Assembly: GCF_020164585.1 (NCBI RefSeq)
Contig: NZ_JAIQZF010000006.1
Span: 186,001-250,000, forward strand
DNA from: Psychroflexus curvus
GTDB taxonomy: Bacteria; Bacteroidota; Bacteroidia; Flavobacteriales; Flavobacteriaceae
DNA: 64,000 nt
Reading direction: 5' to 3'
In this document: piece after piece, positions 56,545-62,425 of the stretch
Numbering within the stretch: the stretch's first letter is position 1
Layout of the letters: each line of letters starts with the position of its first letter
Position numbers and translations under genes: made by a program
Notes under the pieces: model-generated
Database searches by the model: none
Seen by the model: only the letters and a program-made list of their open reading frames with translations
What the model was told of the DNA's origin: nothing

Positions 56545-57493
56545 GTTTGCTGTGGGTTAGTTGTGGTAAAATAACGTAATAATAGATGATTAAAGTTAAT
56601 GATGATAATATAATTAAAATAGCAAGCCAATCTGGCATGCCTGTGAGACGAGTGACAAAGCCTTCTAGAAAACCAGCAAGTATAAAAAAAGGAATGGTAC
56701 TAATTACGATTTTAAGTCCTGCCTTCACCCCCTGAGTAAAAGACTGCAAGCGGGTGTAAGTTTTTGGAAATAAGATGCTTTTTCCCATGACGAGTCCGGC
56801 ACAGGCAGCAACAATGATGACCGAAATTTCAATTGTTCCATGAATCCAGATGGTTCTGGCAGATTCCCAGAGAATACCCTGCTCATAAAAAAAGTATTGA
56901 AACGAGCCCAGCATGATGGCGTTTTGCAGAATGATATAGATAGTTCCCAATCCAGCAAGAATTCCAGCGACGAAAGCAAACAAAGCAACCTTAATATTGT
57001 TGAGTGTAATTCCCAAAAACATATCGGTTTGGCTGGCTTTTTTATAAACCGCCATAGGATCTCCTTTTTGGATGTTTTCTATGGTAGAATTGACATAAGC
57101 GTCTCCCAAAATCAACCTGACAAAACCATCATCTGAAGCTGCAGAGTAGGCTCCAATGACACAGAAACCTAAAAATAATAAAAAAGCCAGTAGTAAAGTT
57201 GATCGATATTCGTAAAAGAAAAGGGGAAATTCTTTTATGTAAAACTGATAGATTTTGTTTTTGGATTCTCTTTTAGTCTTATAAATTTTTTGATGTACTC
57301 CAACGGAGAGTTCATTCAGGTAAGCTAAAGTCTCACTATTGGTATAAAAAGTTTGCGCATAATTGAGGTCTTCTGTGAGCTCTACGTAAAGTTTGGAGAG
57401 TTCACTTGGAGAAATACTCATATTATTTTGCACAAGCCTTTCAAATTTTAACCATTTGTCTTTATTTTGCTTGACAAAAGCCGCCTCTCGCAT
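56519..57493 (-). CDS. Stage II sporulation protein M (SpoIIM)-like membrane protein
   Basis: 324 residues. A charged N-terminal cytoplasmic region (1-95: MREAAFVKQNKDKWLKFERL...) precedes five or so TM helices (about 96-118, 165-190, 195-215, 226-245, 265-290). The SpoIIM-like NNIKVALFAFVAGILAGLGTIYIILQNAIMLGSF and WIHGTIEISVIIVAACAGL segments identify the family. In Bacillus SpoIIM is part of the peptidoglycan-degrading DMP complex, but non-sporulating Bacteroidetes keep it next to MoxR and RDD genes, so a different role is likely. It is the first gene of the seven-gene unit, 32 bases from divergent RDD. Confidence 0.88.
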   Translation of the reverse strand: MREAAFVKQNKDKWLKFERLVQNNMSISPSELSKLYVELTEDLNYAQTFYTNSETLAYLNELSVGVHQKIYKTKRESKNKIYQFYIKEFPLFFYEYRSTLLLAFLLFLGFCVIGAYSAASDDGFVRLILGDAYVNSTIENIQKGDPMAVYKKASQTDMFLGITLNNIKVALFAFVAGILAGLGTIYIILQNAIMLGSFQYFFYEQGILWESARTIWIHGTIEISVIIVAACAGLVMGKSILFPKTYTRLQSFTQGVKAGLKIVISTIPFFILAGFLEGFVTRLTGMPDWLAILIILSSLTLIIYYYVILPQLTHSKHAKQLHQL

Positions 57494-57525
57494 TTGTATA
57501 TAATTTATCCAAAGAAAAGCAATCT

Positions 57526-58242
57526 ATGAGTCATTTTCAAATAGAAACCGCACAAAATGTAAAGATTCAACAAAGTGTGGCTACAGTATGGGATAGAATT
57601 CTGGCTTATATCATAGATTTTATAGTTATAATGGCTTATATTCTAATCACAATTGCTGTTATGACAGGATTGCTAGATGTATCTCCTTTTCAAGGTGCAG
57701 TAACCTCAATGGTTCTTGGGTTGCCTCCTTTTTTGTACCATCTCCTTATGGAAACCTTTATGAACGGACAGAGCATAGGAAAGGCTTCCATGAAATTGAG
57801 GGTCGTTAATCTAGATGGATCCAAACCTCAGTTTTCCGGGTATTTGATCCGATGGCTGCTCAGGTTTGTAGATGTGAGTTTAACCAGTGGAGGAATTGCT
57901 ATTGCGACGATACTAATAAATGGAAAGGGGCAACGCCTTGGTGATCTTGCAGCCAAAACAACAGTTATTACTGAACGTCGGAAAACAGGATTTAAAAAAA
58001 TGCCTTTATTCGAGATAGATGATTCTTATCTTCCTCAATATCCACAGGTAGCAACTCTAAAAGATGATGACCTTAGACGCATCAAATCAATATTTGATAA
58101 AGCTCAGCAAGATGGTGATCATTCTATCATCATAAAACTAGCGGCTAAAGTGGCAAGTCAACTTGAAATTGAAACCAAGCAATCCCCACAAACTTTTATA
58201 CAAACTGTATTGAAAGACTATCAATACTATAGCATTCATTAA
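57526..58242 (+). CDS. RDD family membrane protein
   Basis: 238 residues with the RDD pattern: TVWDRILAYIIDFIVIMAYI (R-D-D-x-x residues), second TM about 51-70, and GQSIGKASMKLRVVNLDGSKPQFSGYLIRWLLRFVD before the third TM. A cytoplasmic tail covers about 165-238. RDD proteins have been linked to Na+/H+ antiport and to transport, but roles vary. It is transcribed divergently from the SpoIIM-MoxR operon; the two starts are 32 bases apart and may share control. The TRIC-like gene begins at the next base after its stop. Confidence 0.9.
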   Translation: MSHFQIETAQNVKIQQSVATVWDRILAYIIDFIVIMAYILITIAVMTGLLDVSPFQGAVTSMVLGLPPFLYHLLMETFMNGQSIGKASMKLRVVNLDGSKPQFSGYLIRWLLRFVDVSLTSGGIAIATILINGKGQRLGDLAAKTTVITERRKTGFKKMPLFEIDDSYLPQYPQVATLKDDDLRRIKSIFDKAQQDGDHSIIIKLAAKVASQLEIETKQSPQTFIQTVLKDYQYYSIH

Positions 58243-58872
58243 ATGGAATATACACTTATACTTGACATTCTAGGCGTGATTGCCTTTTCTATATCGGGAG
58301 TGCTTTCTGCCCTCAAGAAACGCATGGATGCATTTGGCATATTTATTATTGCCTTTGTCACTTCTGTAGGAGGAGGAACCTTAAGAGATGTATTATTGGG
58401 TGTTCCTGTGATGTGGATGCAAAATCTAACCTATGTTTATGTCATTATCATCACTGCAGTGTTAGCCGTATTCTTCAGAAAAAAATTGTTTTATTTAAGA
58501 AAATCACTTTTTTTATTTGATACATTCGGAATTGGTCTTTATACGGTGGCTGGTGTAGAAAAGGGAATAGCGGAAGGACTTCCAGCTATAATTTGTATTG
58601 CTTTAGGGACCGTAAGTGCTTGCTTTGGAGGTGTGATAAGGGATATACTATGTAATGAAATCCCTCAAATTTTCAGAAAGGAAATTTATGCAACAGCCTG
58701 TATTTTAGGTGCCTTTAGTTACTTTGTGTTTTTAAAACTAAACTTACCTTTAAGTCTCATTTTTATATTTTCAGGTCTAGTTGTAATTATTGTAAGGCTT
58801 TCTGCTGTAATTTTCAAACTCTCATTACCTACGGTCTATAAAAAAGATGAAGATATCGAAGATTATTGGTAA
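58243..58872 (+). CDS. TRIC-like cation channel family protein (UPF0126/YadS type)
   Basis: 209 residues in two repeats of three TM helices: the first includes GVIAFSISGVLSALKKRMDAFGIFIIAFVTSVGGGTLRD, the second GLYTVAGVEKG and GTVSACFGGVIRDIL. The repeated G-x3-D-R-D/GGGTLRD-GGVIRD pattern is that of bacterial TRIC-like trimeric K+ channels and UPF0126 proteins. It starts on the base after the RDD stop and its stop is 2 bases from the convergent PPIase stop. Confidence 0.9.
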   Translation: MEYTLILDILGVIAFSISGVLSALKKRMDAFGIFIIAFVTSVGGGTLRDVLLGVPVMWMQNLTYVYVIIITAVLAVFFRKKLFYLRKSLFLFDTFGIGLYTVAGVEKGIAEGLPAIICIALGTVSACFGGVIRDILCNEIPQIFRKEIYATACILGAFSYFVFLKLNLPLSLIFIFSGLVVIIVRLSAVIFKLSLPTVYKKDEDIEDYW

Positions 58873-58874
58873 GA

Positions 58875-59594
58875 TTAACGCACTACTTTTATATCCAGAC
58901 CGACATTTGTTAATGGCCATTCACTATCGTCTGTCTCCAAATCGTCTATTTTTTCGACCACATTCATGCCTTTGATAACTTTTCCAAATACGGTATGATC
59001 ACCATCCAAATGGTAAGCTCCATTTGGTTTAGTCACCACAAAAAACTCAAATGGAGATGAGGCGTTACTCACATTTTGTTCAGCATATTTGGCGGCAGAA
59101 ACCATTCCGTAGTCGTGAGGATATTTAGGAGTAGATTCATTCGGAATCAAATAATCGCCGACGGCTCCTCTAAACTGATGTGTCGACATTCTATCGCTAT
59201 TTCCGCCCTGCACCACAAAATCATCATCAACTCTATGAAAAACAGTAGTATCAAAATAACCTAATTTAGCTAATCTTATAAAATTAGCACGGTGAAGAAC
59301 AGGTTCAGGAAAAAGTTCGATGGTGAAAGTTCCAAATTCAGTTTCAACATCTACAATAGTTTCTGGGTTTTCTTTTGCGTAAGTTTTCAGAAAAGGAATT
59401 AATTCTTCCTGTTCCACAAACTTTATTTGAGATAAATCTCTATCTGTACGACCATTGGAAGGAATTTTAACTTCAATCTCCTTTTCAATAGTGTCTCTTT
59501 CGACCTCTTTTTCCTTAGTTGAATTATCTTTGCTTTCTTTACAAGACATAAGCATAACTACAAGACATACTATAAAAAATGGACTTTTCATCAT
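58875..59594 (-). CDS. Peptidyl-prolyl cis-trans isomerase lipoprotein (cyclophilin type)
   Basis: 239 residues from ATG 59594 (a second Met at 59591 is equivalent). Signal peptide with lipobox LMSC (Cys 17-18) and an acidic linker. The cyclophilin-type domain (about 85-235) begins DVETEFGTFTIELFPEPVLHRANFIRLAKLGYFDTTVFHRV and keeps FVVQGG and SPFEFFVV. Cyclophilins speed proline isomerisation during folding in the envelope. The 5' end overlaps the divergent Nudix gene by 16 bases. Confidence 0.92.
   Translation of the reverse strand: MMKSPFFIVCLVVMLMSCKESKDNSTKEKEVERDTIEKEIEVKIPSNGRTDRDLSQIKFVEQEELIPFLKTYAKENPETIVDVETEFGTFTIELFPEPVLHRANFIRLAKLGYFDTTVFHRVDDDFVVQGGNSDRMSTHQFRGAVGDYLIPNESTPKYPHDYGMVSAAKYAEQNVSNASSPFEFFVVTKPNGAYHLDGDHTVFGKVIKGMNVVEKIDDLETDDSEWPLTNVGLDIKVVR
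59525..59532 (+). promoter_or_regulatory. -7 box of the CoA-type Nudix gene, inside the PPIase gene
   Basis: TATCTTTG, an exact match lying within the opposite PPIase coding sequence, 47 bases before the Nudix ATG. Confidence 0.5.
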
Positions 59595-60217
59595 TAACGA
59601 GTTTGGTTTCAAAATTAAAGAAAATAGAACTTCCTGGCGAATCTTTTCATTACCAACTCGCACCTTTATTTAGACAAGATGAGCTTAAAAAAATAAATTT
59701 AAGTGGAAAAGATCCAAATTATGCTGGAGTAGTTTCTTTGTTATACCCCAAAAACGGTAAAGCTTATATGGCTTTTATCCTCCGGAAAACCTACAAAGGA
59801 GTTCACTCCAACCAGATAGGCTTTCCAGGCGGTCGATATGAAGAAGTGGATAAAAATTTGATGCAAACGGCTCTCAGAGAAACAGAAGAAGAAATCGGTG
59901 TTTCGGTAAACAGCATTCAAGTCATAAAACCTCTTACTGAACTCTATATTCCGCCTTCCAATTTTTTGGTACATCCTTACTTAAGTATCATAGATGTAGA
60001 GCCAATTTTTGTGTTACAAGAAAGTGAAGTCGAAAATATTATTGAAATTCCGCTTTCTGTTTGTTTGGATCAAAACAATCTCAATACCGAATTTATAGAT
60101 GCTTCTTATGCCAAAAATGTAGAAGTCCCAGCTTTTAATTTTGAGGGACATGTGGTTTGGGGAGCTACTGCAATGATTTTGAGCGAAATAAGAGAGCTCT
60201 TTGCAAGATTATCATAA
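59579..60217 (+). CDS. Nudix hydrolase, CoA pyrophosphatase type
   Basis: 212 residues. The Nudix box is GGRYEEVDKNLMQTALRETEEEIGV (about 81-105, with REx2EExG); the preceding QIGFPGG and the UPF0035/CoA signature LLTExxxxPS-like LTELYIPPSNFLVHPY are characteristic of the CoA/acyl-CoA diphosphatase group (NudL-like). It would cleave CoA into phosphopantetheine and 3',5'-ADP. The ATG at 59579 lies inside the divergent PPIase gene; both N-termini are well supported. Confidence 0.92.
   Translation: MDFSSLTSLVSKLKKIELPGESFHYQLAPLFRQDELKKINLSGKDPNYAGVVSLLYPKNGKAYMAFILRKTYKGVHSNQIGFPGGRYEEVDKNLMQTALRETEEEIGVSVNSIQVIKPLTELYIPPSNFLVHPYLSIIDVEPIFVLQESEVENIIEIPLSVCLDQNNLNTEFIDASYAKNVEVPAFNFEGHVVWGATAMILSEIRELFARLS
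59610..59617 (-). promoter_or_regulatory. -7 box of the PPIase gene, inside the Nudix gene
   Basis: TAATTTTG on the minus strand, an exact match within the Nudix coding sequence, 15 bases before the PPIase ATG. Confidence 0.5.
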
Positions 60218-60230
60218 GTCTATAAAACCG

Positions 60231-60238
60231 TATATTTG
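60231..60238 (+). promoter_or_regulatory. -7 box of the acyltransferase gene
   Basis: TATATTTG followed by CG, an exact match, 19 bases before the ATG. Confidence 0.6.
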
Positions 60239-60257
60239 CGAAGCAATATTTTAAGGT

Positions 60258-61076
60258 ATGAGCTTATTCAAGAAAAATCCTTTTGGACATTATTTATTTT
60301 TAAAGAAATGGTTGATAAGAATCATGGGGGGACTTACTCATCAACGCTATCAGGGTTTTAATGACCTTCAGATTGAAGGCTCTTCTATTATAAAAAACCT
60401 ACCAGATAGAAAAGTTTTATTTGTATCCAATCATCAAACTTACTTTGCTGACGTGGTGGCAATGTACCATGTCTTCAATGCCTCGTTAAGCGGTAGAGAT
60501 GATAATATCAAAAATGTAGGTTACCTCTGGAATCCAAAACTCAATATCTATTATGTTGCCGCAGCCGAAACCATGAAAAAAGGCTTGTTGCCCAAAGTAT
60601 TGGCTTATGCAGGTTCTATCAGTATAGACAGAACATGGCGAGCTGGAGGTCAAAAAGTGAATCGGCAAGTGAAAATGAGTGATATTTCCAATATTGGAAA
60701 GGCATTGGATGATGGTTGGGTCATTACTTTCCCTCAGGGCACAACTAAACCCTGGAAACCTATAAGAAAAGGAACAGCTCATATCATCAAAAAATATAAG
60801 CCGATTGTTATTCCCATCGTCATAGATGGGTTTAGACGATCGTTTGATAAAAAAGGAATTCGAATCAAAAAACGAAATATTCTTCAGTCGATGGTTATTA
60901 AAGAACCACTAGAAATTGATTACGATAATGAAGAAGTGGAAAGCATCATTGAAAAAATTGAATATGCGATAGAACAGCATCCTTCATTTTTAAAAGTCAT
61001 TCCAGAAAGTGAGATAAAAGCTCATGAATCTCTCAATGAGAAACGGCGTTTTAGTGCCAAAAACAATAAAAATTAA
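60258..61076 (+). CDS. PlsC-like 1-acylglycerol-3-phosphate acyltransferase
   Basis: 272 residues of the PlsC/LPLAT family. The acyl-acceptor motif NHxxxxD has an extra residue: NHQTYFAD, with five residues between His and Asp. The downstream FPEGTR block reads FPQGTTKPW. An N-terminal hydrophobic stretch (about 15-25) and the IVIPIVIDG strand after block III fit the fold. These motif changes recur in Bacteroidetes members as I remember, so this is probably a family variant rather than a dead enzyme. It would esterify lysophosphatidate or a related lipid at the membrane. Confidence 0.85.
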   Translation: MSLFKKNPFGHYLFLKKWLIRIMGGLTHQRYQGFNDLQIEGSSIIKNLPDRKVLFVSNHQTYFADVVAMYHVFNASLSGRDDNIKNVGYLWNPKLNIYYVAAAETMKKGLLPKVLAYAGSISIDRTWRAGGQKVNRQVKMSDISNIGKALDDGWVITFPQGTTKPWKPIRKGTAHIIKKYKPIVIPIVIDGFRRSFDKKGIRIKKRNILQSMVIKEPLEIDYDNEEVESIIEKIEYAIEQHPSFLKVIPESEIKAHESLNEKRRFSAKNNKN

Positions 61077-62113: not shown

Positions 62114-62421
62114 CTGAAGAATACTGAATATGGAATAAGAAACACCAAATCTTGAATATTTTATTTCAACTTCCTCCTAATTCCTAAAACCTACCAACTC
62201 AATTACTCAAAAACTCACAAACTACTGACTACTAAATTTAGAAAATCAGAGTGAAACAACTTTTAACTAAGCTAGTTTCATTCTGATTTTTTATCAAAAA
62301 AATGGAATGTGATGCTTTAAACTTAGAGATAATTTAAATTTGACTCACGACTCACGACTCACGACTCACGACTCACGACTCACGACTCACGACTCACGAC
62401 TCACGACTCACGACTCACGAC
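62114..62421. other. Intergenic region with terminator, G-poor tract and heptamer repeats
   Basis: No supported gene. It holds a G-poor, C/T/A-biased tract (about 62160-62240), a terminator (62243-62292) and the 12-copy GACTCAC array (62342-62425). The array carries pseudo-frames on the plus strand that are only repeat translations. Confidence 0.7.
62243..62292 (+). terminator. Terminator downstream of the aldo/keto reductase gene
   Basis: AAATCAGAGTGAAAC (62243-62257) pairs with GTTTCATTCTGATTT (62275-62289) over 15 bp with one G-U pair and a 17-base loop, followed by T-run. It lies about 130 bases after the stop. Confidence 0.8.
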
Positions 62422-62425
62422 TCAC
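62342..62425. repeat. Perfect 7-bp tandem repeat, 12 copies of GACTCAC
   Basis: 84 bases of twelve uninterrupted GACTCAC units. The array extends into the miaE stop codon: the TGA at 62424-62422 is part of the last unit. Seven-base periodicity shifts the reading frame each unit, so copy-number change alters the 3' flank of miaE but not its coding sequence. Such perfect arrays are prone to slippage. Confidence 0.97.

Follow-up and report, generated by a model that had tools for sequence, protein, structure and literature searches.

Head-to-head gene overlaps are thought to be rare, since promoters need room. Divergent overlaps have been described as strongly under-represented, the probable reason being that the region upstream of a gene is required by regulatory elements (PMC2174442). 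The overlapping divergent pairs treated in PMC2174442 and PMC2716372 consist, like the locus reported here, of opposite-strand genes sharing their 5' ends; the locus differs from them in that its promoters likely lie inside the partner's coding sequence—with one of these likely promoters traceable across a family. In excludons and genes with overlapping 5' UTRs (as outlined in PMC7154746 and PMC4179725), divergent mRNAs are complementary at their 5' ends, as is predicted at our locus; here, however, the predicted overlap amounts to about 69 nt rather than to a long antisense RNA over the neighbouring gene. The noncontiguous operon menE-menC-MW1733-ytkD (PMC7154746) likewise places an antisense gene between co-directional genes, an order that we also found, but the likeness is one of gene order, and the pair described below has local boxes. 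Finally, the sigma-A promoters of Bacteroidota described in PMC9723704 and PMC6847099 share their -7 consensus with the boxes found here, which differ in lying inside coding sequences and in having no -33 TTG at the usual spacing. A search of a limited literature collection returned no report of this pair or of conserved divergent pairs with promoters inside ORFs, and we regard the pair as a well-conserved case of a known class, i.e., divergent pairs with overlapping 5' ends.

The locus is part of a 64,000-nucleotide stretch of the Psychroflexus curvus genome (hereafter, the window), the nearest named relatives of which are Psychroflexus montanilacus, P. sediminis and P. gondwanensis, in a genus within the Flavobacteriaceae. 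The features relevant to our analysis are as follows.

58243–58872, plus strand (the Nudix strand): glycine-transporter-domain gene (PF03458), ending 2 nt before the convergent PPIase stop
58875–59591, minus strand: cyclophilin-type PPIase lipoprotein gene, with a conserved ATG at 59591 and an alternative ATG at 59594
59525–59532, plus strand: TATCTTTG, putative -7 box toward the Nudix gene, in the PPIase codons after the lipobox
59537–59605, both strands: predicted antisense overlap of the 5' ends, 69 nt, including both start codons, inferred from the box position given in PMC9723704
59579–59591, both strands: head-to-head coding overlap of 13 bases (16 bases, reaching 59594, with the first Met as the start)
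59579–60217, plus strand: Nudix hydrolase gene (CoA-pyrophosphatase-like), 212 amino acids, ATG at 59579
59610–59617, minus strand: TAATTTTG, candidate -7 box toward the PPIase gene, in Nudix codons 11–13 with the pattern NCA AAA NTA; these codons (Ser-Lys-Leu) read CAAAATTA

Both gene products are recognizable from their sequences. The Nudix product matches PF00293 (E-value of 1.6e-9, exceeding the domain cut-off) and aligns with NUDT7 and CoA pyrophosphatase chains at E-values between 1e-9 and 8e-8; against the CoA pyrophosphatase model PRK10707, its best NCBIfam match, it scores 70.9 bits, under the curated cut-off of 134. The PPIase product matches PF00160 (Pro_isomerase) with an E-value of 2.2e-38 and 132.4 bits, against a cut-off of 21.7, and its N-terminus carries a lipoprotein signal, MKSPFFIVCLVVMLMSC, with a lipobox judged by eye. 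The Nudix N-terminus is delimited by an in-frame stop 6 nt upstream of ATG 59579, with no start further upstream. The two genes thus share 5' coding bases on opposite strands between positions 59579 and 59591. A preliminary description of this DNA had placed the starts at 59579 and at 59594 or 59591, with an overlap of 16 bases; these coordinates are right, and the overlap comes to 13 bases when counted from 59591.

Three sets of genomes were compared. The first contained 60 genomes, 46 of which had a match to the Nudix product, and all 46 loci were read; the second, with nearly one genome per genus of the window's own family (Flavobacteriaceae, the meaning of "family" in all counts below), contained 159 genomes, of which 153 had a match and 151 were read (11 of them common to the first set). 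From the 189 loci read, three duplicates (L001–L003, repeating L005, L006 and L010) and one locus cut by a contig end (L037) were dropped, leaving 185: 161 with an opposite-strand PPIase gene upstream of Nudix, and 24 in which no PPIase gene was detected by tblastn. The genus set comprised 26 readable Psychroflexus genomes, i.e., the genome of the window and 25 of its 26 congeners. Positions relative to Nudix are counted from the A of its start codon, so that 59591 corresponds to +12 and the box at 59610–59617 to +31. Expected codon counts were derived from a null model based on the amino acids and the codon usage of each locus, which treats loci as independent; because the relatedness of the loci inflates the resulting z and p values, we relied on contrasts between codons.

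The arrangement of the start codons is well conserved. In all 26 readable Psychroflexus genomes, the PPIase ATG occupies position +12 of Nudix, so the 13-base overlap seen in the window extends throughout the genus. An in-frame stop lies directly upstream of this PPIase start in 12 of these genomes. In 24, a stop precedes the Nudix start by no more than 30 nt, and the Nudix start codon itself is ATG in 24 and TTG in two. Since the extra PPIase Met (59594 in the window) is present in only 7/26 genomes, 59591 is the better PPIase start. The N-terminal anatomy put forward in the preliminary description holds, with the PPIase start recurring in 26/26 genomes and stops located just upstream in congeners. 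Across the family, the PPIase ATG falls between positions -12 and +16 relative to Nudix—hereafter, adjacent starts—in 143 of 161 loci, and some coding overlap exists in 76 of these 143. The commonest PPIase positions among the 117 adjacent-start loci outside Psychroflexus are +1, with 42 loci in which a single CATG serves both genes as the start codon, and -3, with 29 loci. Beyond the family, among 38 further genomes with a match from other families of the order, 25 were read, an opposite-strand PPIase gene was present in one (L230, possibly foreign because its assembly has 6% contamination) and the +31 box in none. Similarly, among the nine loci from other families in the 60-genome set, one (L042) has the PPIase start at -113, the other eight lack the PPIase gene, and the box occurs in 0/9.

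We then consider the sequence element directed toward the PPIase gene. The preliminary description had proposed that each gene has an exact TAnnTTTG box within its partner's coding sequence, and both were located; moreover, TAATTTTG and TATCTTTG are the sole exact matches within 59480–59700 on the minus and plus strands, respectively. The box toward PPIase, reading CAAAnnTA on the Nudix strand, begins exactly at position +31 in 121 of the 161 loci, where 8.2 (sd 2.7) would be expected; at any other position of the first 90 nt of Nudix, it was found in at most one of these loci. Its conservation exceeds what the overlapped protein would impose. Nudix codon 13 (encoding I, L or V) ends in TA in 157 of 159 cases (50 expected), codon 11 (S, T, P or A) is NCA in 125 of 139 (26 expected), and the tripeptide [STPA]K[ILV] is written NCA-AAA-NTA in 118/132 cases at +31 and in 15/166 elsewhere in both genes. 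Where codon 13 encodes Ile, the codon is ATA in every case (108/108), compared with 880/3094 elsewhere. The exact box is missing in 40 of the 161 loci, including 7/26 Psychroflexus genomes, in which it is one mismatch away.

A constraint acting on the protein or on a codon ramp, rather than on a promoter, could in principle produce such an element: the Lys-Ile/Leu of the Nudix N-terminus is itself conserved, third bases lean toward A near the start, ATA is raised at Ile codons 8 (10/12) and 16 (45/68), and codon 18 reaches a third-base z of 12.4. We consider this explanation very improbable. When all 161 loci are taken, unselected for the box, the third base is A in 144/160 cases at codon 11 (32.9 expected, z 22.7) and in 158/160 at codon 13 (50.4 expected, z 18.8), followed by codon 18, with all remaining codons under 9; at Ile codon 10, only three codons away from codon 13, ATA is found in just 17/67 cases. 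The residues vary (S/P/A/T and I/L/V), whereas the bases stay constant. As codons 8 and 16 are raised too, a general ATA bias near the start does exist, without reaching fixation. Taken across the family, this pattern indicates that the PPIase-direction box is under selection at the DNA level, for which a promoter embedded in coding sequence is the best reading; the PPIase promoter very probably lies within the Nudix gene.

The occurrence of the box also follows that of the PPIase gene. It is present at +31 in 110 of 143 loci with adjacent PPIase starts, in 11 of 18 with the PPIase start further off and in 5 of 24 without a PPIase gene (adjacent vs. none, Fisher p 2e-7; 5/16 when the PPIase-less loci are restricted to the family, p 4e-4)—p values that are optimistic, because this association is phylogenetically clustered. 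A search of the order yielded 47 loci (seven of them repeats), where the new family members had the box in 2/2 cases with and 2/13 cases without the PPIase gene; together with the 5/16 above, seven same-family loci with no detected PPIase gene retain the +31 box. In one genus (g132), no PPIase gene was found in any of the 13 species read, and the box is missing in 11 of them. We also observed that two members of this genus that kept the box (L220 and L227) and one that did not (L098) have an opposite-strand gene upstream of Nudix, with a product containing MYS(K/R)EE.

The box in the opposite direction shows a patchier history. TATCTTTG stands at -54 of Nudix in 9/26 Psychroflexus genomes, all close relatives, which are also the only carriers of a box at this position among the 143 adjacent-start loci (9/143). 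An exact TAnnTTTG occurs at -60 in one other Psychroflexus; four have it between -102 and -111, and none was found within 120 nt upstream of Nudix in 12/26. For the box to be exact, the codon preceding Lys has to end in C; this is so in 10 of the 11 nearest species, although AAC makes up only 39 of 185 Asn codons in their two genes. Since these species are close relatives, the excess of the C-ending Asn codon is suggestive only. The loci with a shared CATG have a different element: TAnTATTG, a -7-like sequence one base off the consensus, appears at -34 in 21/42 of them, against 0.42 expected, where the codons of the PPIase signal peptide read NCA-ATA-NTA. Among loci with PPIase starts at -8 to -2, either Nudix-direction box was found in 7/65 and neither in 58/65. 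When this group was searched by k-mers for an element in the Nudix direction, no convincing box emerged: the string TATCTTCACA mostly reflects the CEDK residues that follow the lipobox and shows a modest codon excess. Counted over the first 45 PPIase codons, TAnnTTTG occurs in 28 of 143 loci (16.1 expected, sd 3.5). Over 50 codons, the excess is carried by the 27 loci whose PPIase start is at +12 or +15 (14 vs. 6.0 expected), and the other 116 are near chance (15 vs. 11.4). The distribution suggests that the Nudix-direction box is younger than its counterpart, and that it moves. The interlocked boxes of the preliminary description are both in place, with firm comparative backing on the PPIase side (121/161 loci vs. 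8.2 expected); on the Nudix side, the -54 box is confined to 9/143 loci. Comparison across genomes establishes both start codons and supports a Nudix-direction box in parts of the family only; that the -54 box is the Nudix promoter in this species is a proposition we favour by a small degree.

The Nudix gene could instead be expressed mainly by read-through from the transporter gene across the antisense PPIase gene, as in a noncontiguous operon, with PPIase as the sole gene having a local promoter. The transporter gene lies on the Nudix strand in 82 loci, with a median convergent gap of 3 nt to the PPIase stop, and runs directly into Nudix in three PPIase-less loci (L173, L188 and L044, the last from another family). 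Additionally, the only terminator-like site within 58200–60300 is at 58272–58285, with none between the transporter gene and Nudix, and many loci have no local Nudix box. Against this reading, among the 157 loci whose sequence extends 250 nt or more past the PPIase stop, the transporter arrangement was seen in 81 and the gene was not found at that place in 76. No trade-off between the transporter gene and a local Nudix box emerged across 133 loci either: the box is no less frequent, if anything more so, with the transporter gene (31/72) than without it (16/61; p 0.047). We hold read-through to be a minority prospect, unlikely as the main route to Nudix expression. Three loci with no transporter gene (L050, L060 and L134) have upstream of PPIase, on the Nudix strand, an RDD-like gene, recognized by eye from its C-terminus.

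In promoters of this type, a -33 TTG stands 17–23 nt before the -7 box. No TTG at this spacing is present on either side in the window, and on the PPIase side across the family it was found in 10 of the 121 loci with the box, against 39 at a control spacing; a scan for sigma-70 elements (TTGACA/TATAAT) gave 5 matches against 7.0 expected and was uninformative. The -33 element is reported to be weak in F. johnsoniae (PMC6847099). TAnnTTTG is given as the -7 consensus in Flavobacterium (PMC9723704, PMC6847099), and the account of F. psychrophilum promoters places it at -12 to -5, with a median leader of 24 nt (PMC9723704). Both boxes of the window match this consensus exactly, as well as its TAHHTTTG form, at a plausible distance for a leader. 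If the boxes act as promoters with the published placement at -12 to -5, transcription would start at 59537 for Nudix (a 42-nt leader) and at 59605 for PPIase (11 or 14 nt), so the 5' ends of the two mRNAs would be antisense to each other over 69 nt—close to the roughly 65 bases that the preliminary description had estimated. The predicted RNA duplex has a free energy of about -109 kcal/mol, while folding of each strand by itself is weak (-1.4 and -4.4).

Such a geometry raises the prospect of a regulatory switch, in which face-to-face promoters and a 69-nt 5' duplex would bring about mutual repression in the manner of an excludon. The predicted complementarity is perfect and covers both start codons, and the Nudix-direction box appears to be under DNA-level selection in the CATG clade and is retained in the nearest Psychroflexus species; however, the predicted overlap is short, and both its length and the position of the Nudix box differ among clades, so no fixed antisense element is conserved. 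There is also, in our judgement, no evident functional link between the Nudix and PPIase proteins. Furthermore, conservation would here mean that promoters are kept, which are needed anyway where there is no spacer, and it is therefore not evidence of mutual regulation. We consider a switch a distinctly unlikely interpretation, and the coupling of the two genes by transcription interference or antisense pairing, as the preliminary description had suggested, is possible.

To place the pair in its genomic context, we sampled 464 kb of the same genome (20 stretches and the window). With the longest ATG-initiated frame taken for each gene, its 52 divergent pairs have a median gap of 193 nt, and three of them overlap. 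With starts chosen by coding score, the other two overlapping pairs have gaps of 101 and 73 nt, and the pair studied here has one of 29 nt, at the cost of dropping the PPIase signal peptide; for this reason, the locus needs comparative evidence. A second tight divergent pair is located at 57493–57526, with a gap of 32 nt between an unnamed protein gene (minus strand) and an RDD protein gene (plus strand), and no exact TAnnTTTG was found around it on either strand within 57350–57700. Elsewhere in the window, at positions 62342–62425, the 7-mer GACTCAC is repeated perfectly in tandem, with 12 copies. TAnnTTTG is enriched before genes in this genome, with 82 of 377 having it in the sense orientation between -75 and -5, compared with 34 in antisense; a single box is nonetheless weak evidence, because the motif has a density of about 0.07 per 100 nt on each strand.

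The explanation that we regard as probable is a compact divergent pair with no spacer, in which each gene would be read from a housekeeping promoter of the sigma-A type, with the -7 box embedded in its partner's coding sequence. The two promoters would face each other and the mRNAs would be complementary over some 50–70 bases at their 5' ends, with interference or RNA pairing between the transcripts as a possible by-product. The simplest reason for the conservation of this arrangement would be that neither gene can move without losing a promoter or an N-terminus. A broader proposal is that a reciprocal pair of promoters inside ORFs existed through much of the history of the Flavobacteriaceae, with NCA-AAA-NTA in Nudix and, in one clade, NCA-ATA-NTA in PPIase, where CATG supplies both starts, and that enforced face-to-face transcription balanced the two genes; we regard it as doubtful.

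The conservation of the +31 box suggests that at least one of the buried signals is real and old. The locus points to a way round the rarity of head-to-head overlaps, whereby a promoter would be written into the codons of a neighbour and preserved family-wide by synonymous choice (ATA over ATT). Loci with the PPIase gene adjacent, displaced or missing, and with several types of overlap, constitute a natural set in which to test the coexistence of convergent promoters separated by a few dozen bases. The pair is also a warning: close to the start of a gene, the choice of codons and the annotation of start sites can reflect the promoter of a neighbouring gene.
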